Of a DNA stretch of 64,000 bases, positions 11,945 to 55,653 are shown one piece after another (positions within the stretch are counted from its first letter, which is position 1; each line of letters starts with the position of its first letter). This stretch comes from a virus: positions 45,913-109,912 of the IMG/VR virus record IMGVR_UViG_3300027141_000003; one strand, given 5' to 3'. The translations under genes and the position numbers were made by a program. Below the pieces are notes generated by a model, which had not been told where the DNA came from, searched no databases, and was given only the letters and a program-made list of their open reading frames with translations.

Positions 11945-12871
11945 TTAAAACTCCAGCAATAACTTGTATTCAATGTCTACGGGTCTTCCTGGCTTCTTTA
12001 TTAACGGGGTAGACAATACGGATCTACTAATTATTCCATATCCTGGATCAAAGGTATCTTCATCATTAACTCTAATGCCATCAAAGTAGACTGTTGTGTT
12101 CCCGCCAGCTGCTGTTACGGCAACTCCTATTTTTGTAATAGATGCAGGATCTGGCAAGTTTGGAGAAGCAGTATAATTTGAAAAAAGGCTGTTCATTGAC
12201 AGACTTTGTATTCTATCTCCTGAGCCAGTTGCGGGAGTAAAATCAACATAGTAGTATGCTGTTGGAGAACTATAAAACTTTACTCTAATGTTAGATAAGT
12301 TATTGTCTGATTTTTTGTAAGCGATAGATATAGTATCATTAATGCTATAGCCTGAGATATCATAAGAATCTAAAGAGTTAGTGTATTCTTTTGTTGTACC
12401 AGAAGTTGCATCTACTCTAATCATGCTATCATCAATTTTTGATAAAAATGTGTAGTTCCCAGAAGCATCCTGGGTATTACTCTGAATAGTTGGATTGAGT
12501 ATTCCGTCAAACCAATTAAAATTATTTGTAAAAGAAGAAATAAACTGACTATCATAGTTGTTGAAAGAAGATCTACCTCCAGGATAAAGACCTATTTCTG
12601 ACACTACACCAGACACATCTTGTGGAATTGTTGAGGAATAAACAACATTATATTGAAATACTGGATTGTTGCTTCCATCTACCCCAGTTTGAATTACGTC
12701 AAAACTTGATAAGAGGACGGGCAATCTATAAAATTCAAACTCTAGTTTAGTATCATTCCCATTAGCATCGACAGGAGTAGAGCCTATTCCTAATGCTAGC
12801 TCTCTGCCAGAAGAAGAATTAACCCCTGCCAGTTGACCTGCTAAAAATCTTTTACCAAATTTAGTTATCAT
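11945..12871 (-). CDS. minor tail protein with a lectin-like beta domain
   Basis: 308 residues. The first 100 residues (MITKFGKRFLAGQLAG onward, with VVSEIGLYPGG) resemble the N-terminal anchoring part of phage tail fibres. The middle (about 105-280) looks like a jelly-roll carbohydrate-binding domain, with KVRFYSS-type strands and VYFDGIRVND near its end. It overlaps the next upstream gene by four bases. A role in adsorption is likely. Confidence 0.6.
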   Translation of the reverse strand: MITKFGKRFLAGQLAGVNSSSGRELALGIGSTPVDANGNDTKLEFEFYRLPVLLSSFDVIQTGVDGSNNPVFQYNVVYSSTIPQDVSGVVSEIGLYPGGRSSFNNYDSQFISSFTNNFNWFDGILNPTIQSNTQDASGNYTFLSKIDDSMIRVDATSGTTKEYTNSLDSYDISGYSINDTISIAYKKSDNNLSNIRVKFYSSPTAYYYVDFTPATGSGDRIQSLSMNSLFSNYTASPNLPDPASITKIGVAVTAAGGNTTVYFDGIRVNDEDTFDPGYGIISRSVLSTPLIKKPGRPVDIEYKLLLEF

Positions 12872-13274: not shown

Positions 13275-16200
13275 TTACTGACTATAAATAGATCTAGCAG
13301 TTATTTTAGTATTAAGCCCTCCCTCAAAGCTGTTATTTATATTAGATACTATAAACTTCTGTGTTCCGTCGAATCCATTTGCAGGATAGTTAATTGTAAC
13401 AAGATCTCCCACAGAAATCAAGGGGTTGGAGAATACTTCTAGTTCGCAAACTGACTGCTTTTTAGACCATTGCTGTTTAATCCACTCAGATAAGCTCTTA
13501 GCATCCGACTCCCTTTGTATCCAGGCCGACTCGAAAGTTGCCTGCTCTGGAGTAGTAAATTCATTTATTGTTTTATCCAGATATTCATTTTGGCCAGACT
13601 GAACAATAGTGTTTCCTAGGATAGTAAAAGAGGCAAACTGAGAGTCATCTAGCGGAACAAACGTACCCGCATTATTTACAACATAAACTTCGGCTCCAAA
13701 AGACGTTAGCCTTGATCCTAAAACTTCTACATACTGGCTTAGCCCAACGCTTGCAAAAACTGGGAATGCGGGCCTAGAGTCAAATTTAATATCTATCTTT
13801 TTTAGCTCTCTTGCAACTGTGCCAAATTCATCTACCGTTCCGCCAGAAACACCAGTGTTGTCAAAATTACTTGTAAGCTTGTCTCCATAAAGAAAATCTA
13901 GTGTTGTACTTCCAAATCTTCCGTAATACTGATCTTTAAATAAACCCTTGTCATACTGATCTTTAGTTAAGGGGATTGCATATACGTAATCAAAGAAGGT
14001 AGTTCCTGTTCTTGAGTATATAGCTATATTTGGAGTGGGAACAATAATATCGTCTGCGTCAGCTGCTGTAATCTTAAATCCATTAATAAATACGTCTATA
14101 GCAATAACCTCATTGACTGTATCATGCTTTACACGTATGTCAACCTTATAAGAAGTAGATCCTGATAAAAATGCTAATGTTTTATTTATATCCGACTGCG
14201 AATCAGTAAGAGATGTCATAATGCCATCTTTAACTTTAAATACCCCTAATGACTTATCTGATCCGCTTTTTGCTAAATTAGCTGTTGTTTCTAAAGAGAC
14301 ATAATATCCATCATCTCCATTAGCACTTGTAAAGAATCCAATTCCCCCAGCCGCTGATACATCCTTGACGGTGCTTTTAAAAAACATTCCTGTTCCGAAA
14401 GTGTAGTAATCTCCAGAGTAATCTATGGCCATATTTTTTACAGCCACAGAGTATAGTTGCTTGTTGGTAGAATCAGATGTTATTTTAAATAAAGACTTTT
14501 GAATTTCTTTAACCGACGAATTTGTTTCTGTTGGAACTGAATCTAAAGATGGTGGATTTGCTACAGATGCTAAAATATCAGATGACACAGAGCTTGGTGC
14601 CAGAGGGTCTGAGTTGGCTTTAAATACATTATTGTATCCTGACCACCCAATTTTAGCGTTTGCCCCAGCAGCTGTATGCGCTGCTATAGCTGTGCCCAAT
14701 GCGCCTCTAGTTTTAATTCTTATTCTTCCAGTTTGTCCTATAGATTTATTAGCAGCTTTTGTTGTTGTCATATCGTTTGCAATTTTTTGCAAGTCGCTCT
14801 GCTGCTTGATGTCAATCTTTTTTATAGTATCATTGGCGCTGTAATACTGATACTCAACTGCGTCATACTCTATAATTTCAGAATCAATAACTAAATATCC
14901 AGAGTAGCTATAAATAATTTGTTTTTGTTCTTGATTAACTATGATAGGAGATAGGCTAATATACTCTCCTGCTCCTGCGGTTGCTGACAATGCGGTATTA
15001 AGCGAGTATGCTCCTAGATATGCAGATCCTGACTTCCATAAAGGCTGGGCGCTACCAAGCAATTCGCTGGCTGTTACTGGATTCCATAATACTTTTACTT
15101 GGTTAATTGCTGGTAAATCTATTTTATTTAAAGACATTATGTTAGGTAAAATGGTTCCGTCTTTTGCATACTTAAAGTTCCAGTGTGCAGTAGTTTGAGA
15201 AAATAAGTAGTCTCTTGTATAAAATTGAAGAACGTTGTTTTCATCAAAGGTCGCCACCATTTGCGAATCTCTACAGAGTTCCTGTATGGCATTCCAAACA
15301 CTTTCACTGTCATCTGTCCACCAATATATAGGACTGAGTATAGATTCATCTTTTACTGTACCCACCGTTGGCTTGTAGTTTATATTATAGTTGGTAAAGC
15401 CTACATTATCTAAAAGCCTTCTTATAATTCCTATTGCCGAAGTGTCCTTGCAAACCATTCCTGGAACGATTATGTCTTGCAAAGCTTTAGCACCATCTAA
15501 GGCTGTTAAATTAATATTGCCAAATTCAGATGTATTCCAGCTATCAATATAAAATGTTCCCTGCTTTACCCTTTGGTGTGTACCCTTTGAATCACTAAAT
15601 GGCGCAGCTGAATAATAAACTTTTATATATGGCTTTAGCTCGGCACCCTTATACATATACAAATATGATGAATTGAATGCTGTTCCCTTTTCGTATGAAA
15701 CAATTTTTCTTGGGGATTCATAAGAAAGCAAAGAGGCCGACATTGAGTTTGCTGAAACTTTTCCAACTGGCAATATATCATCAGCGCTAGTAGATGATTC
15801 TTGGGATGTAGAAAAACTTATCATGCTATCAGTTAGGTCTGCTACCCATCTAGGAGATAGCTCAATGACTCCAACATGTGCATTAGTTACGCCTGCTGTT
15901 GTTAGCCTTAAAGATGTTATAGGCACAGGAGCTGATAATGTTGAAGGCTCCGTAGTTGTCCAAGATGTTCCGTTATAGTATAAAGTTAGAGTTCCTGCAT
16001 CGTAATTTTTTGTTCCGCTAGTAGTGAATGGTTTGATTGCAGAACTTGACCCTGTTGCAAGTTGAACATTTCCTTCTTTAAATATTGTCCATGTGCCTGG
16101 AGTTGAATGTGATATCTCAAACCTAACAATAATTTTATTTGTTAATATTGTTTGTCCATTATATGTAATTGTTATATCTGCCCCTACTCCTTTTTGAGTA

Positions 16201-33024: not shown

Positions 33025-34770
33025 TTATATACTTTGTACCACGATCCAGTCGTTATCATAGTATTCTGGTGCTTCTTCTGTCACATTGATAGCTGGATCT
33101 ACGACTGAAGTAGAAGGTCTTCCACAATATAAATCAAAATGTGTGTCTACTTCTGTAATTGAAAGGGCTCTAGGGTATAAGGCAATATTATTATATAGAT
33201 TATCTGGCCCCCCAGAAGATTCATAATTAAATTTAAATACTCCCGTAATTGGAGATGCAAATACTAAAACTATGTGGTGAGGCTCTCCTGGGACCAGGAA
33301 ATTGTTTACATTTGTTTGCGATGTCTTATCTACCCCATTGACGTAAAGAGCGCTTATAGAGGCCTTAGAGACCGTTTGAGAGCCATTCCAGGCATACTTA
33401 GTGCCAGAGGCTGCGTGATAAAATAATGTATTTGCGCCATTAGTCTTAGGAGTAAAAAACATCTCTACTGTACTTATATTTAATCCAGTATTAGAATCAA
33501 ATCCATACCCAGACTTAGCCCTAATTCCATTATTGTAGTGTCTAATTAATGGTGAATAATTTAATGATCCGACTCTAAATTGACTATTAGATCCAATATA
33601 ACTATTTGAGTTGTCTGCATACACCAAGGATTCTCTATAGAACCTGATTGAAAAATAAGAAAGTCTAGGAAGGAACTTACTAGCATCTGTAGTAGACATT
33701 GTGATTTTTATATAAAGTAGCCCACTAGAATTAAATGATCCTTTTGTGTATTGTGGGATAGAGTCTCCATTTTCACACACTACATAATTAGTTCCATCTA
33801 TACTGGTTTGAACTGTAATTCCTAAGTCGTTCCGCCATTCAATTTTTGAATTTGTCAATCCACTTTCTGTTGGAATAAATAAAAAGTCTTCAATAATTAA
33901 TGTTTTTGAGATAGCGGTTTCAGTCGGAATAAAGGATACATATTGACCTACTTCATCATAATAAGTATTAGAATCTATTACCTCGTCCCAAGGCTTGGAT
34001 ACACCGTATATGTAATCAAAGTCCACTCTGTTATTTAAATCTGAGCAAGAAAACACTGTGCCATTTTCTGGGTGCGCCACATGAATTGGCTGTATGTAAT
34101 AATTGCCGTCATTGAAATGCTTTAATATCTTATCTCCTGTTAGCCCATATCTATATACCGCTGGAGCATCTACAATAAAGGAGTCAGACACATTTGAGGT
34201 TGGACCAATTTGTAAGTCTAACTGTGTATTAGTAAATTTAAATGAAGAGTCTATAGATTTAATTGCTACCTGCTTACCATCTATAAACAAGCTAATAGAA
34301 TCAACCGAATAAACTCCTGCTACGTGAATAGCTTTTTTGCTATAAAATAATGCCCATCTAATTTGCTCCGTACTGGAAATTTTAAACACTACATCTCCCT
34401 TTTCATAATATAAACCTATGCCGTCTGCAACATCTGCAAACAGAGGGGTTGATGTGGAAGATTGAATATCTTGACTTACCCATAGCTCTAAGGTAAAGTC
34501 ATTGTCTGAAGAGTATTTGTTTCCTAGCCCATTTGAAACAGATGAGCCATAGAAGTCTTTTGATGTTGGTAGTGTTATATAAGCAGTATTAGTTATTTTG
34601 GTTCCTGATCCGCCGCCTGCAATAATTGGCAACATGTTTGATGCGGGAGATCCCACATATGTAGCATTATTTCCACACCCTGAAATATCTGCGGCATTAG
34701 TCCCCGAAGTCTCATCCAGTGGCCAAAACCCAATTGGATAATCTTTGATAACCTTCAGTGTATACGTCAT
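33025..34770 (-). CDS. virion protein with two concanavalin/LamG-like domains
   Basis: 581 residues. The first domain (about 10-220) starts with PIGFWPLDETSGTNAADISG, a classic LamG/laminin-G-like opening, and continues with FTLELWVSQ and a closing HVAGVYSVDSISLFIDGKQV. A second one (about 400-560) has VEMFFTPKTNGANTLFYH and HHIVLVF. Such domains bind glycans, so a host-binding or decoration role is likely. The ATG lies six bases after a TATAAT box (34777-34782), which predicts a leaderless mRNA that separates this gene from the dioxygenase operon. Confidence 0.75.
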   Translation of the reverse strand: MTYTLKVIKDYPIGFWPLDETSGTNAADISGCGNNATYVGSPASNMLPIIAGGGSGTKITNTAYITLPTSKDFYGSSVSNGLGNKYSSDNDFTLELWVSQDIQSSTSTPLFADVADGIGLYYEKGDVVFKISSTEQIRWALFYSKKAIHVAGVYSVDSISLFIDGKQVAIKSIDSSFKFTNTQLDLQIGPTSNVSDSFIVDAPAVYRYGLTGDKILKHFNDGNYYIQPIHVAHPENGTVFSCSDLNNRVDFDYIYGVSKPWDEVIDSNTYYDEVGQYVSFIPTETAISKTLIIEDFLFIPTESGLTNSKIEWRNDLGITVQTSIDGTNYVVCENGDSIPQYTKGSFNSSGLLYIKITMSTTDASKFLPRLSYFSIRFYRESLVYADNSNSYIGSNSQFRVGSLNYSPLIRHYNNGIRAKSGYGFDSNTGLNISTVEMFFTPKTNGANTLFYHAASGTKYAWNGSQTVSKASISALYVNGVDKTSQTNVNNFLVPGEPHHIVLVFASPITGVFKFNYESSGGPDNLYNNIALYPRALSITEVDTHFDLYCGRPSTSVVDPAINVTEEAPEYYDNDWIVVQSI

Positions 34771-34776
34771 AATTCT

Positions 34777-34805
34777 ATTATATACTAACTCTTACCTTTT
34801 GAAAA
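34777..34805 (-). promoter_or_regulatory. leaderless-type promoter of the LamG-like gene
   Basis: TTTTCA, 17 bases, TATAAT on the minus strand, then exactly six bases and ATG. It overlaps the last codons of the dioxygenase gene at 34792. Confidence 0.75.
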
Positions 34806-35385
34806 AGAATATGGGCACCATATACTTAGTTCCAGATATTGTTGGCTTTGGATCATGCAAAACTCCTTCTGAGGCAAATACAACTACGCTTCCAGCTTCT
34901 GGCTTTAATGATATGCCGTGATCTGGGAATTCTATTTCTCCGCCTTCGTAGTCATCATTTAAATACATAACCATTGAAACAGTAGATGTATGCTCTGCCC
35001 CATCGTATGCGTCTACATGCGCCCCCATATGAACACCAACATTATATTTATTTATACCAAAATAAACTGGTAAGTATCCTAGTTCTATTCCAGAACTAGC
35101 AGCATACTCTTCACCTATTGAGATTACATTTTGTGTAATCATAGAGCAAAGTTTGGCATTACTTCTATCTGCATCCGTAATGTTTTGAAACATATTTAAA
35201 AAGCATTTTTTTAGCTTCCCATAAGAAACATTACTATTTGATGCATTCCACTGTTCCCATTGTGATATTTGAGAAAAGGGACCCTGAAAGGCATCCATAT
35301 CTTCAATCTCTTTTACAAAGGATATCGGGTCTGCAATAACATTTTTATAGTAATGTATTTCAGGATGTAAAATTTCTTTAATCAT
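34792..35385 (-). CDS. 2OG-Fe(II) dioxygenase, prolyl hydroxylase-like (array member 6)
   Basis: 197 residues from the ATG at 35385, which has AAAGG five bases upstream and overlaps the previous stop. The double-stranded beta-helix core is clear: iron ligands H123-V-D125 and H177, and K187 at the 2-oxoglutarate carboxylate position. The conserved YLNDDYEGGEIEFP signature lies between them. Lys at that position is typical of prolyl 4-hydroxylases. It is the last gene of the operon that starts at 41118. Substrate unknown; proline-rich virion proteins are the proposed target. Confidence 0.85.
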   Translation of the reverse strand: MIKEILHPEIHYYKNVIADPISFVKEIEDMDAFQGPFSQISQWEQWNASNSNVSYGKLKKCFLNMFQNITDADRSNAKLCSMITQNVISIGEEYAASSGIELGYLPVYFGINKYNVGVHMGAHVDAYDGAEHTSTVSMVMYLNDDYEGGEIEFPDHGISLKPEAGSVVVFASEGVLHDPKPTISGTKYMVPIFFFKR

Positions 35386-36085
35386 ATTTACCTTTATATG
35401 TTGGAATGTTGCCAACTTCTTGGCCCTTCTTCCACTCCTTATAGGTTTCTTCTTGTTCTGCTCTTGTTTGCTTTAATTCAGATTCCCACTCCGCTATCTG
35501 CTCTGGAGTGTAAACAGCATCTGCATTATCCCAAAAGGATCCAACCGTGTATCTTTCTGCATTTTTAACAGTAGTCACTTCATGCTCATTGCCATGCCCA
35601 CCTTTAAAGAAGGCCAATCTTCCTGGCTTTGCTTTGACCACTATATCGTGATGTTTAAAGTTTAGGTCCCCACCTTCAAAATTATCATTTAGATATAAGA
35701 ATCCAGCATACTTACTTTTATAAAATGCAGATGGGCTTCCGTCTTCATGTGTATTGTCTGAATGAAAACTAGCAAATGCTCCAATAACCCATTTTTGTGC
35801 ATGATAGCTTACCTCTGATAGCTCTCTACCAAAACACTCTTCTCCAGCTTTTTTAATTTTTTCCTTTAATTGAGAAAAGTAATCTGATGGCAGCCCAAAC
35901 AACAATAGGTTATCGTCATGTGGCCAGTAGCCCATGGCAAATGAGCCATAAAAAGAAATTTGGTTCCACTCTAAATGTCCTGCATTTACAATTCCGTCTA
36001 GGTATCCAATAATAGACTTACATTCCTCTTCTGTTATTAAATTATCAATAATAAAGACATCGTCTTTTAAAGCTGTTATTTCCAT
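35378..36085 (-). CDS. 2OG-Fe(II) dioxygenase (array member 5)
   Basis: 235 residues from the ATG at 36085, six bases after AAGGA and overlapping the previous stop. Iron ligands are H108-S-D110 and H168, with R178 for 2-oxoglutarate; YLNDNFEGGDLNF is the family signature. The C-terminal 45 residues are a charged helix (EQIAEWESELKQTRAEQEET) not found in most neighbours. The Arg instead of Lys suggests a different subfamily from the Lys-bearing members. Confidence 0.85.
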   Translation of the reverse strand: MEITALKDDVFIIDNLITEEECKSIIGYLDGIVNAGHLEWNQISFYGSFAMGYWPHDDNLLLFGLPSDYFSQLKEKIKKAGEECFGRELSEVSYHAQKWVIGAFASFHSDNTHEDGSPSAFYKSKYAGFLYLNDNFEGGDLNFKHHDIVVKAKPGRLAFFKGGHGNEHEVTTVKNAERYTVGSFWDNADAVYTPEQIAEWESELKQTRAEQEETYKEWKKGQEVGNIPTYKGKYD

Positions 36086-36927
36086 TAGCATTCCTTCTTT
36101 TCTGCTTTAGATACAAAATCTAAATGATCTTCTATTTCTTTTTTAGTTGGCTCAACCTTTTGGCCATCTTTAAACACTAAGTTTCCTCCATAAATGTCGG
36201 CGTCTATTCTTGCCTGTTCCATTTCGGCCCAACGTTTTGCCCCATACTTAAGCTGGTTAGCAAGCCACTCTTCTGATCCTGCATACGGGTAGATCATAAA
36301 GTTTCTAATAAGATACTTGTTACCTCTAGTAGCTGTTCTAACTCCGTGATAATAAGGCTCTCCAGATGGAAATACCATGATGTCTCCAGCCTCTGGTTTA
36401 TATGCAGGAACAAATTCCCCGTCTACATAAAATTCAATCTCTCCACCTTCATAGTCATCATTGATGTAAACAGTGCATGTTAAGAAAAATTGATTGCCTG
36501 GCATGTCTTTTTCGCTTTGCTTAAAATCTGTATGGTACTGCATTGTTAAATTATTTTTTAAAGCGTCTACATTTGTGTGGTATTTACAGAAAGAAGAAGA
36601 GCCAAGCTTGCAATCTTCTGGAAGATCAATTTTATACTTATCAATATAATCATCAATTGCTAAGTTATAGGCATCATATACTGTTTCTGCGGCCCAATAT
36701 TGCAGATCAAACTCTTCATCTTTACCCAATTGATCTTGAACCCCACCTTTAAATTTTGTGCTGGCATAATTACCGAAAGCACTCCAAGGGGTCCATGGGT
36801 TAAAGTATTTGTCTCCAGTATTGTTTTCTGTAGATTGAATTACTTCAAATATTTTCTTATGATCTGGTAGTAAGTTTTTGTAAACTTCAATTCTAGGATA
36901 TAGTGTTTTTGTTACAAGACTCGACAT
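36085..36927 (-). CDS. 2OG-Fe(II) dioxygenase (array member 4)
   Basis: 280 residues, the longest of the array. Ligands H132-T-D134 and H194, K204 at the 2-oxoglutarate position, and YINDDYEGGEIEF in between. A helical C-terminal extension of about 65 residues carries AEMEQARIDADIYGG. The stop overlaps the start of the next gene as TAATG, and the start overlaps the previous stop by one base, so translation is coupled. Confidence 0.87.
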   Translation of the reverse strand: MSSLVTKTLYPRIEVYKNLLPDHKKIFEVIQSTENNTGDKYFNPWTPWSAFGNYASTKFKGGVQDQLGKDEEFDLQYWAAETVYDAYNLAIDDYIDKYKIDLPEDCKLGSSSFCKYHTNVDALKNNLTMQYHTDFKQSEKDMPGNQFFLTCTVYINDDYEGGEIEFYVDGEFVPAYKPEAGDIMVFPSGEPYYHGVRTATRGNKYLIRNFMIYPYAGSEEWLANQLKYGAKRWAEMEQARIDADIYGGNLVFKDGQKVEPTKKEIEDHLDFVSKAEKKEC

Positions 36928-37595
36928 TATTTGCCTCTTCCCAACTTATCTATTGTCCAGAACCACGGAGAAGTGTATCTGGTGCCTTCTGTAATTATAT
37001 CAACACCGTGAATATAATTTAAATCTCCAGGGAAAAAATAGGCTGCTTTTTTCTTTGGCTTAAAAGCAACTTTTTGTTTAGGGAAATGCAACCTACCACC
37101 TTCGTAGTCTTCATTTAAATAAAAGATTGTTCCTAAGTCATACCAAGGGAAGTTACCTGGCTTGCCAGCATCTGGACCTTCATGTAGCTCTTTGTCGGCA
37201 TGGGGCCATTGCATTGATCCAACTGGCCATCTAACTAGACACGGTCCAGTAGGCGTTACCTCTACATCAAAATGTTCTTCTATAACTGGCTTTAATCTGT
37301 TAATGATTACTTCAAGCATTTCTACTACTTCTGGCCCTGTTTGATCTAAGGACTTCTTCGTAGCTACTCGGTCTTTCCAGACATTATGCTGGTAAATAAT
37401 TGTTCCGTTTTCGTTGTATACATCTTCGCCTGGATCCCAAGTTGTATTATTTTTAGCAAACTCTAGGAGGTAATCACACTCTTCATCTGTTAAAAAATTT
37501 TCAACTTCTACTATATTCTCTGGGCCTGCGCCAAAATATCCAGATGGTGTTATAGACGTTCTGTGATCTCTTATGTCGGAAATGTTTTTATCCAT
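36927..37595 (-). CDS. 2OG-Fe(II) dioxygenase (array member 3)
   Basis: 222 residues. Ligands H132-A-D134 and H196, R206 for 2-oxoglutarate; FYLNEDYEGGRLHFP is the signature. The N-terminal part (VEVENFLTDEECDYLLEFAK) is the typical helix before the catalytic core in prolyl hydroxylase-like proteins. AAAGGA lies upstream of the ATG. The gene follows the unknown protein at 37612 by 16 bases. Confidence 0.87.
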   Translation of the reverse strand: MDKNISDIRDHRTSITPSGYFGAGPENIVEVENFLTDEECDYLLEFAKNNTTWDPGEDVYNENGTIIYQHNVWKDRVATKKSLDQTGPEVVEMLEVIINRLKPVIEEHFDVEVTPTGPCLVRWPVGSMQWPHADKELHEGPDAGKPGNFPWYDLGTIFYLNEDYEGGRLHFPKQKVAFKPKKKAAYFFPGDLNYIHGVDIITEGTRYTSPWFWTIDKLGRGK

Positions 37596-37611
37596 TTATT
37601 ATATCCTTTTC

Positions 37612-38340
37612 TTATTCATACTTTTTGGGAACCCAAGTTTTTTGCTTATAAACTCCATATTTTACTTTTCCTAAACTATCTTCTCTATAAATTTTTGTAT
37701 GTGCTTCGTGGCTATTTGCCATTTCTTGTTCTGTAAACAAGTTAAATTCGGAAGACCAATTTTCTCTTTTGTAGGGGAAAATTTGTGCGTAAGGAGTTCC
37801 TTTTTTAATTATACCCTGAAAAGTATTTTTTATAAAAAACGGGATAAGCCCTGGGGCCCCGTACTTATCACTATCAATTATACCTCCTGTGGTCAAAAAA
37901 GGCAGCTCGAAATGATTTATAGGTTGCATTACAAGGGCGCTATAGCCCTTTGGTAAAGTGAACCCCCAGTCTGGGTACCAATGAAATCCTTGGTTGTAAT
38001 ATCCTTCTGGATAGTGGAATTGACCCATATGAGGCCTGCCTTCACAAAACCCCGCAAAACCTTGCTCTGGCTGAATATAAATACTATCGTTATATTTAGT
38101 AACCGCTACATCACATGGGGTTGTAAACATATATCCTGAAGAAAAAACATCATGTAATGCTGGACAAGATTTAAATCCAGGACCTTTGCTATTGTCTGGT
38201 GGTAAATCTATTACTGCGTCATTTTCATCAGTCCAATATTTGCTTGCATTTAAAAACCAATCTGGAGTAGTTTTTTTTGCTGGAGAAGGCACAGTATTTT
38301 TATCGTTATATGCCCTATTGGAATTAAAAACAATTTTCAT
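37612..38340 (-). CDS. conserved-looking protein of unknown function, possibly DUF6065-like
   Basis: 242 residues without a recognised catalytic motif. Notable parts are KKTTPDWFLNASKYWTDEND, FKSCPALHDVFSSGYMFTTP, YSALVMQPINHFELPF and GTPYAQIFPYKRENW. The late Pro/Gly-rich strands suggest a beta barrel. It shares general plan, length and position with the two following paralogues, but I see only weak direct similarity. Overlap of four bases with the upstream gene places it firmly in the dioxygenase operon, so it may process or hold the same substrate. Confidence 0.7.
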   Translation of the reverse strand: MKIVFNSNRAYNDKNTVPSPAKKTTPDWFLNASKYWTDENDAVIDLPPDNSKGPGFKSCPALHDVFSSGYMFTTPCDVAVTKYNDSIYIQPEQGFAGFCEGRPHMGQFHYPEGYYNQGFHWYPDWGFTLPKGYSALVMQPINHFELPFLTTGGIIDSDKYGAPGLIPFFIKNTFQGIIKKGTPYAQIFPYKRENWSSEFNLFTEQEMANSHEAHTKIYREDSLGKVKYGVYKQKTWVPKKYE

Positions 38341-39059
38341 TTATTTAGATTCTTAACATCTAGCTTAATTGATTTAACTTCATGCTCTCCTAGAGCATTA
38401 CCCATGTAGTCTACGGCATCTCTGTAGTAATCCGTCCACTTACCTTCGGCATTAGCTTTTTCAGCAGCAGCCATTGCTCCCTCAAGAGTAAGAGGGATAT
38501 CTCTTTTTAGAAAAGGAGCATCGTGTCCTTCTCCCAAATTAATTGTAGAATTATTTAATTGAGTAAGAGATATTGGCATTATTGCAATTATAGGATCATT
38601 TGCCTTTATTGTAATTGGTACAAATGGTCTTGTAATTTTCCATGCAACTGGGAGAGGCCCTTCAAAAAAAGATGTAGTTAAAATACTTGTGACTGCGCTG
38701 GCCCCATCTACAAAATGATTAGGAACTGGGAAAGATAAAAGGCTGTAGTCTTTATCCGTTACAAATCTAAGGTTGGTTTTAAAGTTAATTGTTGCGTGTC
38801 CTCTACCAGTTTCACAGTATTTTTCTCCTTCTAAAATTTTTACATTGTCTGGATAGGTGCTTGTTATTCCATCCCACATAAAGGTTATATTTTCAGGAAA
38901 AGACAATCCCCATCCTATTTGATTGCTAAGTGTAATTGGAAAACATCTATATGCATGCTTATGAGCAGTTTCATCCATCCAGTCTCTTTTTGCAGAAAGT
39001 GGTGTTATGTTTGCAGAAAATGAAGATCCTGAAACCTTATAGGCATTTAAATTAATCAT
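38337..39059 (-). CDS. paralogue A of an unknown family (DUF6065-like)
   Basis: 240 residues from the ATG at 39059, which overlaps the previous stop and has a GGGGG/GGGGA stretch upstream. It is clearly related to the next gene: both have an RxWM motif, AY(R/N)CxP(I/L)T(L/I)SN, GWG(L/I)SFP, SILTTSFF/SITSSSFY and a C-terminal YRD(A/G)xDxxGNxxGxHE. The pattern is what I recall for DUF6065, a family without known function. The predicted fold is mostly beta. Confidence 0.7.
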   Translation of the reverse strand: MINLNAYKVSGSSFSANITPLSAKRDWMDETAHKHAYRCFPITLSNQIGWGLSFPENITFMWDGITSTYPDNVKILEGEKYCETGRGHATINFKTNLRFVTDKDYSLLSFPVPNHFVDGASAVTSILTTSFFEGPLPVAWKITRPFVPITIKANDPIIAIMPISLTQLNNSTINLGEGHDAPFLKRDIPLTLEGAMAAAEKANAEGKWTDYYRDAVDYMGNALGEHEVKSIKLDVKNLNK

Positions 39060-39750
39060 TATTTTTTCCCCCTTCAATAACATAAAGACTTATTTTTTTT
39101 GTTTCGTGCTGGCCTACAACATTTCCATATTGGTCTAATCCGTCTCTGTACCAGTTTGTAAATCCATTTTTCGATAAACTAAATTCTTGCATTTTTTTCA
39201 TGTATTCTTCGTCATGTTTTAAATTGGGCACTTCTTTATTGTGCATTGTAATTGATGACTTATTCAATTCGGACAAAGATATCGGAATTATTGATGCTAC
39301 GGGTGTGCCAGCTTTAATGGTAATAACTTTATTTTTAGACAGAACCTTCCATACAACTTGAAGTCCTGCTGTATAAAAAGATGAAGATGTTATTGAAGTA
39401 AGGCATTGAACATCTTCTGCAATTTGATTTGGAACGGGCATAGTTAAAATACTAAAATTTGAATCTGTTTTAAATATTAAATTTGTTGCAAAACATATTA
39501 CTGATTGCCCACGTTCAAAAAAACAATATTCTTCTCCGCTTATTACTTCTATCCCAGACTCATTTCCATTATCATTTAAAACAAATGAAATATCTTTTGG
39601 GAATGATATACCCCATCCAAGTTCATTTGATATAGTCAATGGCGGACAGTTGTATGCATATGGATGAGTTTGCATCCATTCTCTCTGTGGCTTTAATGGA
39701 GATAGTATTGCCTCTAAGCCACCTGTTCTATAGCAATCAAAGTCTATCAA
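39052..39750 (-). CDS. paralogue B of an unknown family (DUF6065-like)
   Basis: 232 residues from a TTG start at 39750, directly after the stop of the dioxygenase gene. It shares most conserved positions with paralogue A, including REWM, AYNCPPLTISNELGWGISFP and a C-terminal NWYRDGLDQYGNVVGQHE. The tandem pair points to a local duplication followed by divergence. Metal-binding or catalytic residues are not obvious. Confidence 0.7.
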   Translation of the reverse strand: MIDFDCYRTGGLEAILSPLKPQREWMQTHPYAYNCPPLTISNELGWGISFPKDISFVLNDNGNESGIEVISGEEYCFFERGQSVICFATNLIFKTDSNFSILTMPVPNQIAEDVQCLTSITSSSFYTAGLQVVWKVLSKNKVITIKAGTPVASIIPISLSELNKSSITMHNKEVPNLKHDEEYMKKMQEFSLSKNGFTNWYRDGLDQYGNVVGQHETKKISLYVIEGGKNND

Positions 39751-40491
39751 CTACATATCCCTTTGTTCGGCAGGCTTAAATCTTTTCCCTTCAACCAAGT
39801 GGTTGTACTCGTAGCTAGCTTCGATTTCTCGATACATTGGAGTATGAGGTGCTTCTTGATAGTCTAACATTGTTACAATTGCATATTTAGTTCCTGATTT
39901 AACTGGCATTGCTGCATGAGAATATATATAAGAAGACGGGAAAAGATATAGGTCTCCAGCTTTAGGTTTTACTGTAACGCCAAGCTTGTCAAAAAATAGC
40001 TCTCCGCCTTCATAATCATCATTGATATACCCTACTGAAGACAATACGCATACGTAAGAATATCCATGATCGGAATGGACATTAAAATGTTGGTTTTTGC
40101 CGTACTTAATAAAATTAAACGACTCCCAATAATTTAACGGAGGAATTTGAAACATTTGCATATAGTCTGCTACTGCCGACATTTGAAGACTTTTTGCTTC
40201 TCTCCAAATTTGCCTTAATTCAATTTCATCTTCAGTAAAATCTTTTGGGTCAACATGAGTTCCATTACCCAGCATTAATGATCCGCCATCGTTTTCTTTA
40301 ATTTTAAAATCCCAAGCATCTCTGTAGTCTTTATTTAATGTATCGTATCCAGTCTGGGCTAGATTCCAATGCTTCTTGCCCTGTGTCTTAGATAGCACTG
40401 ACTCCAGCCTTTGATCTAAATTATATTCTTTTTTAAAAACATCTCTGTATACAACAATTCCAGGATATATTGTTTCTGCATTTGGCAACAT
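39751..40491 (-). CDS. 2OG-Fe(II) dioxygenase (array member 2)
   Basis: 246 residues. Ligands H139-S-D141 and H192, K202 at the 2-oxoglutarate position; GYINDDYEGGELFF between them. It resembles the next upstream dioxygenase closely (both have YPGIxxY near the start, YSHxAxPV around the distal His, and VTMLDY after it), so these two arose by tandem duplication. It starts directly after the stop of that gene. Confidence 0.88.
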   Translation of the reverse strand: MLPNAETIYPGIVVYRDVFKKEYNLDQRLESVLSKTQGKKHWNLAQTGYDTLNKDYRDAWDFKIKENDGGSLMLGNGTHVDPKDFTEDEIELRQIWREAKSLQMSAVADYMQMFQIPPLNYWESFNFIKYGKNQHFNVHSDHGYSYVCVLSSVGYINDDYEGGELFFDKLGVTVKPKAGDLYLFPSSYIYSHAAMPVKSGTKYAIVTMLDYQEAPHTPMYREIEASYEYNHLVEGKRFKPAEQRDM

Positions 40492-41118
40492 TTAATTAAC
40501 CACCTTTTTGTGTTTTCTATCAACATAGTCATCGTATTCTTTTGAATGAGCATCATCATTATAGTCTAACATTGTTACAAAAGAGTACTTCACCCCAGAA
40601 TCCACTGGAAGGGCCACATGAGAATAAATAAAGGAAGACGGGAAAATTATTAAGTCTCCTTCATTAGGCTCTATATGTAAATCGAACTTAGGAAAAAAAA
40701 GACCTCCGCCAGTATAGTCAGAATTAGGATATCCAACTAATGATACGGTAGATTTATAAGACCATCCATCGTCAGCATGCTCTTTAAAAAATTGATTTGG
40801 ATAATACTTTACAACATTTGTCCATTCCCAAAAATCCATTTTAATGCTGTACATTTCACAAAAATCTTCTACTTGATCTTTTTGGCAACTGTATATGTCA
40901 TTGTATATATCTAAATATTCTGGCTTATCGTAAATCTTTAAGTCTTGACAATTTCTATACTCTAAATCTTGATCTTCTAAAGATACCGTTGCAATATCCC
41001 ACTTTAAAATATTATCGTTTACCTTATCTTCAATTCTTTGAATTAAATTTAATTCTTTAGGGAAGGCATTTGGATATTTCCAGATGCCTGGATATAGCTG
41101 TTGTTTGTTATATATCAT
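40492..41118 (-). CDS. 2OG-Fe(II) dioxygenase (array member 1, first gene of the operon)
   Basis: 208 residues. Ligands H114-A-D116 and H167, K177 at the 2-oxoglutarate position. The usual NDDYEGG signature is changed to NSDYTGGGLFFP. The promoter at 41125-41153 puts its -10 box exactly six bases before this ATG, so the operon of eight genes down to 34792 may start with a leaderless mRNA. Sister copy of the downstream dioxygenase. Confidence 0.87.
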   Translation of the reverse strand: MIYNKQQLYPGIWKYPNAFPKELNLIQRIEDKVNDNILKWDIATVSLEDQDLEYRNCQDLKIYDKPEYLDIYNDIYSCQKDQVEDFCEMYSIKMDFWEWTNVVKYYPNQFFKEHADDGWSYKSTVSLVGYPNSDYTGGGLFFPKFDLHIEPNEGDLIIFPSSFIYSHVALPVDSGVKYSFVTMLDYNDDAHSKEYDDYVDRKHKKVVN

Positions 41119-41124
41119 AAATAT

Positions 41125-41153
41125 ATAATATCATTTTAAACAGTCCTAGTCAA
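41125..41153 (-). promoter_or_regulatory. leaderless-type promoter of the dioxygenase operon
   Basis: TTGACT, 17 bases, TATTAT on the minus strand, then six bases and ATG. The -35 box begins a few bases after the stop codon of the repeat/Hint protein and is followed by AG, as in the promoter at 61531-61559. Confidence 0.8.
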
Positions 41154-41157
41154 TAGG

Positions 41158-42750
41158 CTATGCTAGGGTTTTGCAGCCGTTGTAAGCCAGCATTGATTCT
41201 GCTGCTATTAGTCCCCATGGCTCTCTATAAAACAAAAATACCTTGGTTTCTTTTTCAACAACTTCAAGTGATTCAATATTGATAAATTCTTCTATACCAT
41301 CTTTATAAAATACAATTTGATCATTTTCTTTAAGATTTGATGTTGTTGCAAACTGATATCTACCGCCTCTTTTTATTAAAATCTGCTCAACTGTAGACAA
41401 GTCGTTTTTTTCTTCATTGTTTATTCTAATAACAGTAGTATTGGTCTTTTCGTAAATATTAAAGACCGTAGACTCAACATAAGATACGTTGTTCAATGTA
41501 TCTGCTCTCCAGTTCTCTACTAGTTCCAAACAGTTCCTCGTAACTTCGCCTATGCTACAAGCGTCGTCTCCTTCTGGGCTATCGTCAAAGTTTACTGTTA
41601 ACAAAATATCTCCGTTAACGATTTCTTTGGCTTTTTTGTAGCCATTTTTTGTTAAGACATTGGTATCTTCTGGAATACAAAAAGTTGGCGGCGCAAAGAA
41701 TCTAGGTGGAGAAAAGAATCTAGGTGGTGAGAAGAATCCTGGTGGCCCAAAGAATCCTGGTGGCGAGAAGAATCCTGGTGGAGAAAAGAATCTTGGTGGT
41801 GAGAAGAAGCCTGGTGGAGAAAAGAATCTAGGCGGTGAGAAGAATAGGGGAGGTGAGAAAAATAGGGGAGGTGAAAAGAATCTAGGAGGAGCGAAGAATA
41901 GGGGAGGGGCAAAGAATAGAGGTGGAGAAAAGAATCTAGGCGGAGCGAAGAATAGAGGTGGGCTGAAGAATAATGGTGGGCTGAAGAATAATGGTGGGGA
42001 GAAGAATAATGGTGGGGAGAAGAATCTTGGCGGGGCAAAAAAATCAGGTGGGGCAAAGAATAGAGGTGGTGAAAAGAATGTAGGAGGGGAAAAGAATGTT
42101 GTAATTTGATTTGAGGATCTTGGCAAAGACGTTCCATTTGCATTTACTGCAACTACAGAATAAGTTTGAACTGTTCCCATTGTTTCTCTAATGTTAATAG
42201 TTGTTGTTGTACCAGTAACTTCATAAGGAGAAGCTAATCCTCCTGGCTGAGCCGCCGTATCGGTAGATGTAATAATATATTTTGTTAAAGGCTTTCCACC
42301 AGAAGTTGATGCAGACCAAGAAACAACATCCTGACCTCTTAGGTCTTCTGTTGTGTGTCCTGGTCCAGTTGTACTAGAAACTGCAGTTACTGATGCTGGA
42401 GCAGCAGGTATGGTTGTAAATAAAACAGGAGAAGAGGCGGTTGATGCATCTGATTGTCCATTTGCGTTGGTTGCCTTTACAGTTGCCGTTCCTGTTGCAC
42501 CTTGTGGAATACCAACAATTGTAATTGGAGAAGATGCTCCAATATCCGAAAATGTTCCTTGATCAGTTACTAAAGTAGCGGTGTAGCTTACAATTGGTAG
42601 CTGGTTTGGTGGATACTCAAAAGAGATTATAGCTGAAGCATTGTTAAAAGGCCTGTTTGTTCCAACGTCTGTTACAACAACATTTATAGGTGGTATGGGA
42701 AGTTCAAAGTCTCCAGAGAGCTGAGATTTTCTACCAACTTTTTTACCCAT
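41158..42750 (-). CDS. Fn3 - proline-rich hexapeptide repeat - Hint domain protein
   Basis: 530 residues with three parts. Residues 20-215 are two Fn3-like domains (PASVTAVSSTTGPGHTTEDL opens the second). Residues 219-356 are 23 perfect-length hexapeptides FF(S/A/G)PPx. From C358 to the end lies a Hint (hedgehog/intein-type) domain: CIPEDTNVLTKNGYKKAKEI is block A and ATTSNLKENDQIVFY is close to block B. The usual TxxH reads TVEQ, and the usual C-terminal HN reads YN (AYNGC). Hint domains cleave or splice at their Cys; the changed residues make activity uncertain. By position it is a fibre protein and a candidate dioxygenase substrate. Confidence 0.8.
   Translation of the reverse strand: MGKKVGRKSQLSGDFELPIPPINVVVTDVGTNRPFNNASAIISFEYPPNQLPIVSYTATLVTDQGTFSDIGASSPITIVGIPQGATGTATVKATNANGQSDASTASSPVLFTTIPAAPASVTAVSSTTGPGHTTEDLRGQDVVSWSASTSGGKPLTKYIITSTDTAAQPGGLASPYEVTGTTTTINIRETMGTVQTYSVVAVNANGTSLPRSSNQITTFFSPPTFFSPPLFFAPPDFFAPPRFFSPPLFFSPPLFFSPPLFFSPPLFFAPPRFFSPPLFFAPPLFFAPPRFFSPPLFFSPPLFFSPPRFFSPPGFFSPPRFFSPPGFFSPPGFFGPPGFFSPPRFFSPPRFFAPPTFCIPEDTNVLTKNGYKKAKEIVNGDILLTVNFDDSPEGDDACSIGEVTRNCLELVENWRADTLNNVSYVESTVFNIYEKTNTTVIRINNEEKNDLSTVEQILIKRGGRYQFATTSNLKENDQIVFYKDGIEEFINIESLEVVEKETKVFLFYREPWGLIAAESMLAYNGCKTLA
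41683..42096 (-). repeat. 23 tandem 18-bp repeats coding FFxPPx
   Basis: Exactly 414 bases, 23 units of 18. The first two residues are always Phe and the PP pair is invariant. Position 3 is Ser, Ala or once Gly; position 6 varies among Leu, Arg, Gly, Thr and Asp. Synonymous differences between units show an old, drifting array rather than a fresh expansion. The Hint cysteine follows directly as FCIPED, a degenerate next unit. Confidence 0.95.
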
Positions 42751-43273: not shown

Positions 43274-46200
43274 TTATGCCTGGGCTTCTGTCCAAGATAG
43301 TCTTCCGAACACAGATGCTGTTGATGTTCCAATATTTTGAACAACGATTGTCAAAACATCTGGTCCGTCAGGATAAATTCCAACGTTAGAGGTTGTTCCT
43401 CCACCACCCAAGATTGAGTTTCCTAAATCACGAACATTTGATAGGTCGATTGAGTTTGCTCCAGATCCTAAGAAGAATCCTGCTGTAACTTCACCACCTG
43501 TAACTGTTGTAGATCCACCAGAGTAATCTGAGATCTGAGATAGTGATGAGTTAGCAATACCTGCTACGTTACCAACTGCGTTTGTCCAAGTAGTTGCGGA
43601 GCTTGAAACTCCATTCAAAATTGCTGTAACAAGTAGGTTTGCTGCGCCCGAAGCCGTAGTAGCAGTTACATCAAGAGCCTTTAGGGCTAGCTGCATTCTG
43701 TTAATAAGTTCACGTTGTCCAAATGCTGCGGCAATACCGTTATCAACTGAAGGAGCAAGTCTTATTGCAAAGAGCGCTCTGCTTTGTCCTGATGCTACAG
43801 AAGTTGAAGTTCTTTGTCCGTAAGTAAACACGAGGGATTTATCTTCATCAAATCCGCCGTCCATAATTACTGAAGTTCCCCAGTGTGATATAGAAGCTGC
43901 AAAGCTTGGGTAAGCTAGCTCTACCATTGTTGGTGACACTGGATCTAATGTAAATAGTTGAGCGCTTGTAGCTCCCATAGGGACTGCAATGACTCCTGTT
44001 GGGTTTGCCGATAGTGCTGCAAAGCTAGTCTTGAGTGTTAGTCCATTTATAGAGTGAATAAATGTGCCTTCTGGGTAAGCTGCGCTAATTAATCTCATAC
44101 CAGCTTGTAGATTAGCCACGCTAGAAACTGTTCCTTCAGAAGAACCAACAGCTTGAGTTATGCTTAAGTTAGCTTCTCCTGCTCTACCTCTTGTAAGACC
44201 AGTAAATGATGTATCTGATTTTGCAGAGTAATTTACATACTCTACAGCAGATTCATTTTTAATTGCTAGAGTTCCAGCTTGTGGGAATCCTGCTGTTGAC
44301 CTTACATTTAGAGCTAAGTCTGTTGTCAAAACAGTTTGAGTTGTTGCTGTGTATGCTGGAGTAGTTGAAGATTCATAGCGTCCTGGAAGGTTTCCGCTTC
44401 GCATATATGCTTCTGTGTTAACGTTATTGTTAGGCATCTTGTGGCAATAAACAACGTCACCCTTTGGGCCTCTTACTCCCCATCTTACGAAACCTGCACC
44501 ATACCATGTGTAGTCAATATAGAACATCTGCATCTTTGAAAGATCGATATTATATTGGGATGGTCCTGTTCCATCTAGCTTGTCCATATTAAATTCGGAC
44601 TGTTTAATTCTAGTTTCTTGTGTTTTCGATATAATTGCAAATGATGTCGATGCGCCTCTGTAAGCAGGGCTAATAGTCATAGATGCATCAGTTCCAATTC
44701 CAACTACCTTATAGGATTGTCCTCTAATTACAACGTAATCTCCTGGTATTAGCTGCTTTCCAAACGCAGTTGGGAAGTAAGCATCTGACTGAGTAACTGT
44801 TGCTGAGTTTTGAGTAACGCTTACTTTACCAGAAAGCTGGAAAGTTGAATTTCTTTTAACTGCAGATAAATTTTGACCGTCATACTCCCAGAATAATCCA
44901 TTTTGATTGTCAAACATTCCTAGTCTGTTTTGGCATCCATACCAAGACTCTACAGATACAAAGAATGCTCCTGTAGCAAGTGAGGATGATGGGGTAGCTG
45001 GGGCTTCATAAGTAAACTTATCGTCTGAAAGAACATTTACAATTGCAAATGATCCATTGTATGCGGCTTGATCACATCCACCAACTTTTACTATTGTTCC
45101 TGGTTGCAGATTGTGTTTTTCTTTTGTTTGAACTGTTACTATAAGACCAACGCTTGAAATACTTTCAACTCCTGCGTATGGCTTTAAAATTGTACCAGAT
45201 GATACCTGAAGTCCTTTACCAGATTGATATCTAAAATATCTTCTAGTCTGTCTAATACATGATGCGTAGTTTGATGAAGCATTTGTGCCAAAGAGCACTC
45301 CTCCATCATTTGGTCTATGAGCAAAAGTAGATTGAGGTCTTACGTAAATTACCATTGGGCCTGCAAGAGTTCCCGTTGGGGCCGCATCTGCATAGTAAGA
45401 AAATGTTGATGGGCCAGTAATTTGAGCAACTTCCTGATTTCCATTTGGAGGATTAGTTGATGCTGTAGATCCTAGCACAACAATTTCATTTCCAAGAGCA
45501 AGTCCGTGAGGAACTTGTGTTGTTACAGTTATCTTTCTTCCACTATATGTAAATGATGTTGGAAGGCCACCAATTGATGCTCCAGTAAAAAGATCTCCCT
45601 GGGTAATAAGAGTTTTATTAGGATCAAATATAGCTGTTATACCAGTTCTATTTACTGCGCTTGCAGCGTATGTAAATGTTGTGGTTCCACCGCCAGATTC
45701 AATCACAAAGTTTCCATTTGCAGCGGTTAAGTATGTGTCAACTACGCTAATTGGAGTTCCGTTTGCTGGGGCTGCGCCTGATGATAGGGTTACTGAAACT
45801 GTTCTTCCTAAAGCAGCGTATGTAATTGAAGAAATATTAGCAATAGGGGTTGGTCGGGCAAAAGAAAATGGCTTGTTGTTATATAGCCCTAGATTTTCCC
45901 ATTTTGTTTGCTGAATACCATATTCAAAGTCGGTGTCAATGAGTGCTTTAGGCTGAGTTACTCTTAGCTTATTTGTTGTATCCAGCAAAGTTTCTGCTGG
46001 CATAAATGTTTCGTTGGCATCATCAATTGTGATTTGGATCTTATCGTTAGAAGACATCGATGCAGTGTTGTATTCTAGAACAAGTGTCGTGTTCTCTACC
46101 ATTGCGGTGCTTGTGCTTGTATTGTATGCAGTACATCCTAAGCTAGGATCTGAGAAGTTATAAATAACCTGATTTGTTGTTACGTTTGTAATCAACAGCA

Positions 46201-51456: not shown

Positions 51457-51915
51457 TTAAGACAGGTATGCTGTCCCGCCGAATGGTTGAGCCATTGTCA
51501 GCGTAATTTTGTTAATACTATTATAATCTATTCCTGTTTCTAATATGTCCCCAGCACTATTTTTTACAGTAACATTTGGGTTATACCCCATATTATGTGT
51601 TATTTCAAGGTAGTGATAGGATCCAGCATTAATAACTTGGGAAATCGAGAATGGATAAGTCAGTGTGCTTGTGCTTAGTAGATAGTTTGTGGCTCCAGCC
51701 CATGATGCATCGTTTGGCTTTGGACCATAAAATCTAGTCGTTTGCTTGTCGTAATAAAAATCTCCTTCAAATCCTAGAATATCAGCAGGGGCACCATTGC
51801 CATTTAGAATCGTTTTACCACGAGGACCTTGTGGTCCAGGGGTATTCAAAACAAGCTTGTTTACCTGTTCTGTTACTATGACTGTTGGATTACTATTATT
51901 GTTGGTAATTGGCAT
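51457..51915 (-). CDS. small fibre protein with a collagen-like GPQGPRG stretch
   Basis: 152 residues. A short collagen-type segment TPGPQGPRGKT lies near residue 30, followed by DFYYDKQTTRFYGPK and a beta-rich C-terminus (YHYLEITHNMGYNPNVTVKN). The C-terminal part resembles the tip of the fibre at 50012 and the small protein at 3735, which share an HN(M/L)G motif. Collagen-like proline makes it a second candidate dioxygenase substrate. Confidence 0.65.
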   Translation of the reverse strand: MPITNNNSNPTVIVTEQVNKLVLNTPGPQGPRGKTILNGNGAPADILGFEGDFYYDKQTTRFYGPKPNDASWAGATNYLLSTSTLTYPFSISQVINAGSYHYLEITHNMGYNPNVTVKNSAGDILETGIDYNSINKITLTMAQPFGGTAYLS

Positions 51916-54657: not shown

Positions 54658-55653
54658 CTACAGAAACTTTTTGTCTAAATGATCAAATGCATTCTTGGTC
54701 AACTTAATCCAATTGTATTGTTCATGTATTCTAGGAGACTGGGCAAAGTAGTATCCTGAATATGCTTTAAAATTAATAACTGAATCGTACATCAAGTCTT
54801 CTAAATGTTTTGCATTTGGCTTAAACATTTTACCAATATGTGGATCTCCTACTGCTTTTGGAAGAGTCTCATCTGTAAGGTTAGACTTTAGGGCTAATGG
54901 ACCAATAAACTCTTTGTATTCCGCCCACGGATAAGTTGTTATAGTGGGCATTCCTGATGCAAGAGCCTGGAGCGGTATGAATCCAAAACCTTCTCCCCAA
55001 GTTGGATACACAAGAACGTGGTGGCTGTGATAAAGCATTACTAGCTGATCAATGTCATACTCTTCCGTAATAATTTTTACGTTGCTATAAACATCTGACG
55101 GCGAAACAAGTTGTTCTTTATCGTTGTAAACTCTAATTGAAGTAGTTAAGTGTGCTTTAATTGTTAAATGATATTTTGGATTATTGCCAAACATTTTAAC
55201 AAAAGTATCTAAAACTAATTGCCCATCTTTTCTGGGAGAAGGCTCCCCAATATGCAAAAATTTAAACACATCTTTAACAACTCTTTTACGTGGCGCCCAA
55301 ACATCTTGGATACCGTGTGGATAAACCATTATGTCTTTGTTGACGCCATTTTCTTTAAATATTTTTGAGTTCCATGTTGAAGTTGCCCAAACTTCGTCAC
55401 ACAAATTAAATCTATCTACCCATTCTGGCCGCATGCCAGTTGATTCCCAGGGAGTATATCCTATTTGATATTGGTTTTTATGCAGCTTATATAAATGAGG
55501 TTGAGTAAAGTTTATTTGTATTGGAGCTTTTGAATTTGACCACTTTACAGTATGTCCTAATTCTTGTAATGATTTAACTATATGTTGAGATGCATATCCA
55601 AAGCCAACTGCTGGATTTAATCCTGATTTTGGTGTATAAAAAGATATATCCAT
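54658..55653 (-). CDS. glycosyltransferase, GT-B fold (GT4-like)
   Basis: 331 residues. N-terminal Rossmann-like half (GFGYASQHIVKSLQELGHTV), a central HIGEPSPRKDGQLVLDTFVK start of the C-terminal half, and the donor-binding EGFGFIPLQALASGMPTI signature of GT4-type enzymes. It transfers a sugar from a nucleotide donor; acceptor unknown. Possible targets are virion proteins (including hydroxyproline, if present), phage DNA or host glycans. It is read divergently from the transglycosylase gene. Confidence 0.87.
   Translation of the reverse strand: MDISFYTPKSGLNPAVGFGYASQHIVKSLQELGHTVKWSNSKAPIQINFTQPHLYKLHKNQYQIGYTPWESTGMRPEWVDRFNLCDEVWATSTWNSKIFKENGVNKDIMVYPHGIQDVWAPRKRVVKDVFKFLHIGEPSPRKDGQLVLDTFVKMFGNNPKYHLTIKAHLTTSIRVYNDKEQLVSPSDVYSNVKIITEEYDIDQLVMLYHSHHVLVYPTWGEGFGFIPLQALASGMPTITTYPWAEYKEFIGPLALKSNLTDETLPKAVGDPHIGKMFKPNAKHLEDLMYDSVINFKAYSGYYFAQSPRIHEQYNWIKLTKNAFDHLDKKFL

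Follow-up and report, generated by a model that had tools for sequence, protein, structure and literature searches.

The stretch analysed here, which we call the window, consists of 64,000 nucleotides of the IMG/VR virus record IMGVR_UViG_3300027141_000003 (positions 45,913 to 109,912 of a total of 109,912 bp). It contains an array of genes that begins with F, a protein with an aromatic-diproline repeat, and continues with six 2-oxoglutarate (2OG)-Fe(II) oxygenases, ox1 to ox6, among which lie two DUF6065 genes and P, a distant relative of DUF6065 (Table 1; F, P, G and ox1 to ox6 are gene labels, and L numbers denote sampled loci). The first-pass annotation of this DNA had described the operon as a repeat protein followed by the six oxygenases. 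Both were recognised correctly, whereas the two DUF6065 genes and the phrog_7084 relative inside the array were missed. Together with its relatives in other viral records, the array is a candidate phage module for protein hydroxylation.

The repeat region of F consists of 23 FF(S/A/G)PPx units, exactly as first counted. Every unit has FF and PP unchanged, whereas the codons for these residues show synonymous variation: Pro-4 is encoded by CCA in 14 units, CCT in five and CCG in four, and Phe-2 by TTT in 12 and TTC in 11. Hence, the repeat is maintained at the protein level and is not a mere product of slipped DNA. At the DNA level, the window has 21 matches to a three-repeat pattern, as against none in 100 shuffles. 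Across 141 repeat proteins, 95% of the residues that precede PP are Ala, Ser or Gly and 43% of those that follow it are Gly, so that many of the sites read (A/S/G)PPG. Tryptic peptides expected from the repeats include FFSPPGFFSPPR and FFAPPR.

The repeats are flanked by two domains that had been overlooked, an N-terminal Fn3 domain, whose profile scores above the cut-off in relatives of F, and a C-terminal domain of the Hint fold. The AlphaFold model of the latter has a predicted local distance difference test (pLDDT) score of 92.6, and its Foldseek matches (best E 3.4e-6, range E 3e-6 to 1e-5) are hedgehog autoprocessing domains (1at0/6tyy), bacterial intein-like (BIL) domains and inteins. 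Read by eye, the domain retains Cys1, has its block-B His replaced (TVEQ) and ends in AYNG, and so does not show the full autoprocessing or intein set of Cys1, block-B His and a C-terminal HN plus nucleophile. As only Cys1 and a late Asn are left of the intein residues, autoprocessing of F is doubtful; full intein chemistry is not to be expected, and cleavage at the N-terminal side may occur. The tip varies among the relatives of F, being a Hint domain with or without Cys1, a Cys-rich segment or no more than a short end, for example FGSRFIRAY or FK. The Hint tips resemble the bacterial intein-like and hedgehog domains in fold and in usually keeping Cys1. They differ from these domains in that the block-B His is mostly replaced and that Cys1 is absent in some relatives, which makes self-cleavage doubtful in many of them. 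Two loci (L107 and L149) have two FFxPPx repeat genes each, and in the phages of L121 and L164 the repeats lie inside a much larger protein, the one in L164 with a sub-threshold PASTA match.

Five of the six array oxygenases score above the cut-off of the PF13640 profile, and ox3 reaches 26.0 of the required 27 bits; in a search of the whole genome all eight PF13640 copies of the record, ox3 included, were above the cut-off. The HxD...H iron triad, which had been reported as intact, aligns in all six enzymes and is essentially invariant across 476 sequences of the six clades. The 2OG site is occupied by Lys in ox1, ox2, ox4 and ox6, as originally stated, and by Arg in ox3 and ox5. This residue is clade-specific, Arg being found in essentially all relatives of ox3 and ox5, and therefore Lys is not diagnostic of prolyl 4-hydroxylases. 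The family likeness to these enzymes, for which the Lys had been cited, is supported on other grounds: with ox2, the sole query used, the PDB search gave the bacterial prolyl 4-hydroxylases 3itq and 5hv0 (E 3.5e-5). Phylogenetic placement of 596 array oxygenases makes ox1 and ox2 sisters, and ox3 (109 loci), ox4 (92), ox5 (90) and ox6 (85) form separate orthologous clades, an assignment based on a single FastTree tree and best hits to hidden Markov models. As the window enzymes fall into separate clades, the copies are not interchangeable. Two more PF13640 genes lie side by side outside the window, far from the array, at 14660-15520 of the 109,912-bp record.

Table 1. Features of the array in the window and of related loci (locations with L numbers refer to sampled loci).
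Feature	Location	Strand	Remarks
F	41158-42750	(-)	530-residue Fn3 / (FFxPPx)23 / Hint protein, first gene of the array
Fn3 domain of F	42097-42381	(-)	residues about 124-218; PDB 1uey E 3.3e-7 (match over residues 124-223)
Repeat region of F	41683-42096	(-)	23 perfect FF(S/A/G)PPx units, presumed substrate region
Hint-fold domain of F	41158-41679	(-)	C-terminal, begins at Cys358 (CIPEDTNVLT); AlphaFold and Foldseek
ox1	40492-41118	(-)	2OG oxygenase, core type A (ox1/ox2 clade), Lys at 2OG site
ox2	39751-40491	(-)	2OG oxygenase, core type A, Lys; nearest solved structures bacterial prolyl 4-hydroxylases
DUF6065 copy 1	39052-39750	(-)	PF19541 E 6.9e-25, above cut-off
DUF6065 copy 2	38337-39083	(-)	PF19541 E 2.8e-30, above cut-off; predicted dUTPase-like fold
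P	37612-38340	(-)	phrog_7084 protein, distant DUF6065 relative
ox3	36927-37595	(-)	2OG oxygenase, core type B, Arg at 2OG site
ox4	36085-36927	(-)	2OG oxygenase, Lys at 2OG site
ox5	35378-36091	(-)	2OG oxygenase, Arg at 2OG site
ox6	34792-35415	(-)	2OG oxygenase, Lys at 2OG site (clade: Lys or Arg)
G	33025-34770	(-)	phrog_11584 protein; concanavalin-like domain (Laminin_G_3); in relatives it commonly follows the array as the final gene
Cellular DUF6065 fusions	L487:1495-3126, L493:1471-3168, L496:571-2220; L495:691-2340		Cupin_8/JmjC; one SapC

The order of the array genes recurs in many loci as F, ox1, ox2, DUF6065, phrog_7084, ox3, ox4, ox5, ox6 and a lectin-like gene, and a shorter form (F, one oxygenase, DUF6065 and four oxygenases) is also seen. 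Of the DUF6065 loci, 148 are flanked by 3.5 kb or more on both sides; an ox1/ox2-type enzyme was present in all 148 and an ox3-type enzyme likewise in all 148. Hence, the shared core comprises the repeat protein, two oxygenase types and DUF6065. Among the same loci, ox5 was present in 98 of the 100 in the first group versus none of the 48 in the large-genome group, and on such gene content ox4 to ox6 are mostly a lineage-specific extension. A T4-like nature of the large-genome group, whose records reach 211 kb, was considered and is not adopted, as a gp23 search matched nowhere.

A pattern of three FFxPPx units was found in at least 119 stretches of IMG/VR, and a homology search gave 78 loci. 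We took 50 distinct FFxPPx-positive records, each at least 39 kb long, as the sample for the co-occurrence search that the first-pass annotation had proposed, and it bore out the prediction: PF13640 genes were present in all 50 (1 to 15 per record), compared with 0 of 22 whole random virus records. DUF6065 was present in 48 of the 50. Relatives of the oxygenases or of DUF6065 were found in none of the 34 control loci chosen by an arbitrary 14-mer. Among 84,980 cellular genomes, only 11 places matched the repeat pattern, and these had no oxygenase or DUF6065 relative nearby and no Fn3-repeat protein.

The converse test was anchored on DUF6065 (152 loci) and counted a repeat protein as present when a single open frame contained four or more aromatic-PP repeats. 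A repeat protein was visible in 118 loci, and 32 of the remaining 34 have too little upstream DNA. The last two exceptions, L474 and L479, are near-identical, and the 210-kb record of L479 contains ([FY]FPP)n repeats that lie at 191.6 kb and so some 2 kb beyond the sampled flank. This variant replaces FFxPPx at some loci, either on Fn3 proteins or on short proteins whose last residues are FK, and several seeming exceptions (L246, L248, L250, L464, L471, L472, L477 and others) turned out to carry such repeats of the PPFFPPYFPP type. Arrays that regularly occur without a proline-repeat protein had been named at the outset as an observation that would speak against an enzyme-repeat link; none was found among the DUF6065 loci with enough upstream DNA, and the proposed link withstood this check.

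These comparisons strongly support the repeat protein as the target of the oxygenases. The most likely explanation is that the array is a phage protein-hydroxylation module, in which the oxygenases would hydroxylate the aromatic-diproline stalk, probably at its prolines. In this module, a presumably virion-associated, fibre-like protein with an Ig/Fn3 base, an (FFxPPx)n or ([FY]FPP)n stalk and a variable tip, often of the Hint fold, would be produced together with its dedicated 2OG-Fe(II) oxygenases. Types A (ox1/ox2-like) and B (ox3-like) would act on the stalk with DUF6065, most likely hydroxylating the prolines of the PP sites, and ox4, ox5 and ox6, which are separate orthologues in most relatives, may carry out further oxidations or serve other sites; several enzymes may thus yield different sites or products. 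For DUF6065 a non-catalytic role is probable, as a partner that either presents the peptide to the oxygenases or assembles them. Hydroxylation would stiffen and solubilise the otherwise very hydrophobic Phe/Pro stalk. The closeness of ox2 to prolyl 4-hydroxylases, the (A/S/G)PPG sites, the Cupin_8/JmjC fusions of cellular DUF6065 and the position of the array among structural genes also speak for this reading. The fuller version of this proposal, according to which a widespread and previously unrecognised phage system modifies a dedicated aromatic-diproline fibre after translation by hydroxylation, the work being divided among several orthologous oxygenases and DUF6065 presenting the substrate, seems to us as apt to be wrong as right.

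Several points speak against this interpretation. What the sequences show directly is gene content, intact catalytic residues, near-universal co-occurrence, the order of orthologues and predicted folds; hydroxylation by these enzymes, proline as its site, the presence of F in the virion, the role of DUF6065 and the effect on the stalk are predictions. Adjacency within a late operon can reflect co-inheritance; furthermore, IMG/VR records are fragments, the co-occurrence counts are phylogenetically non-independent, and the random control set is small, with most of its records shorter. Enzymes of the PF13640 family hydroxylate non-proline substrates too, and other residues of the repeat could be the ones modified. 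The fold predicted for DUF6065 might point to nucleotides. Finally, virions may lack the mark of a prolyl hydroxylase that the virus encodes, as particles of the chlorovirus PBCV-1 reportedly contain no hydroxyproline by amino-acid analysis, according to a reference note (PMC7019647).

The alternative that survives best is that the oxygenases target another protein, either in the tail or on the host surface, and that the repeat protein is a co-inherited neighbour or a scaffold. The array does lie within a region of structural genes, where G and a protein with an Mtd_N domain are neighbours as well, and in some large-genome arrays the repeat gene is several kb distant. However, the pairing of repeats and oxygenases persists through changes of repeat form, of the N- and C-terminal domains, of strand and of spacing, which simple linkage would not predict, and neither partner was found in random viral loci. 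We therefore consider such a different target unlikely. The first-pass annotation had itself named two other Pro-rich proteins as possible further substrates, those at 12868, which has an acidic DDPEEP stretch, and at 51457, which has one short PGPQGPRG; neither carries the FFxPPx motif, and hence they are unsupported.

The DUF6065 model raises a different question. Built from 65 relatives, it has a pLDDT of 93 and is dUTPase-like by Foldseek (E 3.7e-4, target TM-score of about 0.6), and one could combine it with TET/JBP-like oxygenases and a glycosyltransferase, the gene of which lies 12 kb from the array, into a system for nucleotide or DNA modification. The array oxygenases indeed give weak matches to the Tet_JBP profile PF12851, but these stay below the cut-off (best 18.3 bits versus 34.9 required), and PF13640 is far stronger for every member in which Tet_JBP was found. 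Judged by eye, the catalytic motifs of dUTPases are not apparent in the DUF6065 alignments. The glycosyltransferase phrog_2170 is present in only 18 of the 50 FFxPPx-positive records, a count that covers one family; on this ground we also reject glycosylation as part of the core, and the earlier suggestion that the enzyme at 54658 could add sugars to give an extensin-like glycosylated fibre is not supported. Moreover, a nucleotide-modifying system leaves the constant repeat protein unexplained, and the cellular relatives of DUF6065 speak against it. The family scores above the cut-off in 24 of 190 Alphaproteobacteria genomes, and three of the five long proteins that were analysed have it joined to a Cupin_8/JmjC hydroxylase domain (one, to SapC), which ties DUF6065 to protein oxidation independently of the phages. 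These fusions resemble the phage array in coupling DUF6065 to a 2OG protein-hydroxylase-type domain; they differ from it in using another oxygenase class and in having no FFxPPx partner in the short stretches covered. We regard nucleotide or DNA modification as very improbable. A gene for a PMT-type protein mannosyltransferase adjoins the DUF6065 fusion gene of L487.

No more credible are auxiliary metabolic or DNA-repair genes of the kind proposed for the 2OG-Fe(II) oxygenases of cyanophages (2OG/nitrogen signalling or 2OG balance, AlkB-like repair; PMC3037559), since several of the cyanophage matches listed lie under or next to replication or recombination genes, whereas the array consists of several orthologues in a kept order beside one structural-type protein at more than 100 loci. 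The cyanophage enzymes (phrog_61) belong to the same superfamily and likewise occur in several copies per genome. Unlike the array phages, isolate phages (50,697 records) gave no tblastn match for the repeat protein, for DUF6065 in four divergent versions or for the [FY]FPP protein, a negative that the low-complexity masking of BLAST weakens for the repeats and not for DUF6065.

Hydroxylation of the stalk by the array oxygenases, the reading we prefer, would have a precedent in part. The prolyl 4-hydroxylase of chlorovirus PBCV-1 reportedly acts on peptide substrates (Eriksson et al. 1999, as cited in PMC9301287 and PMC7019647). The phage enzymes would resemble it in being virus-encoded and of the prolyl-4-hydroxylase type, here as predicted from the genes. 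To our knowledge, PBCV-1, an algal virus, has a single such enzyme and no FFxPPx protein, ordered array, DUF6065 or Hint tip. With collagen, plant extensin-type and bacterial (3itq, 5hv0) prolyl 4-hydroxylases the array oxygenases share the 2OG-Fe(II) fold family and the HxD...H...K/R site, and with the collagen and extensin substrates F shares proline repeats, (A/S/G)PPG resembling collagen-type sites. In contrast to the Gly-X-Y triplet of collagen, the presumed phage substrate is an aromatic-diproline repeat with a period of six or four. Virus-encoded hydroxylation of a proline-repeat protein would be of a known kind, and it is the phage setting and the parts that would be new.

What viruses use their prolyl hydroxylases for has been described as cryptic (PMC9301287). 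Many uncultured water phages share a conserved gene set, which suggests that phages hydroxylate a structural protein of their own and which offers a likely, specific and testable substrate for the abundant, unexplained "prolyl hydroxylases" of phages. DUF6065, which was not found in text-searchable papers, gains its first functional context. None of the literature matches to FFxPP-type strings concerned such a phage protein, judged by title and abstract. If true, phages would gain their first described system for protein hydroxylation, as far as the literature searched shows, and with it a viral counterpart of the maturation of collagen or mussel adhesives; the enzymes might also provide a hydroxylase set for Phe/Pro-repeat biomaterials.

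The array is surrounded by structural genes that encode a portal protein, a virion structural protein and an Mtd_N tail protein. The last is a large tail protein with the N-terminal domain of a major tropism determinant (PF18454; 46296-49592 of the window). G is an uncertain member of the module. In L474, the tail genes and the DUF6065/oxygenase array have a tryptophan halogenase gene nearby (L474:3002-4330; PF04820, E 4.9e-76), and the same locus encodes a collagen-like GPAGPT tail protein (L474:6465-7283). An additional aspartyl/asparaginyl beta-hydroxylase-like gene lies directly ahead of the array at L262:105-701 and L264:734-1342, and at the latter locus it is itself preceded by a sulfotransferase-like gene (L264:1-774).

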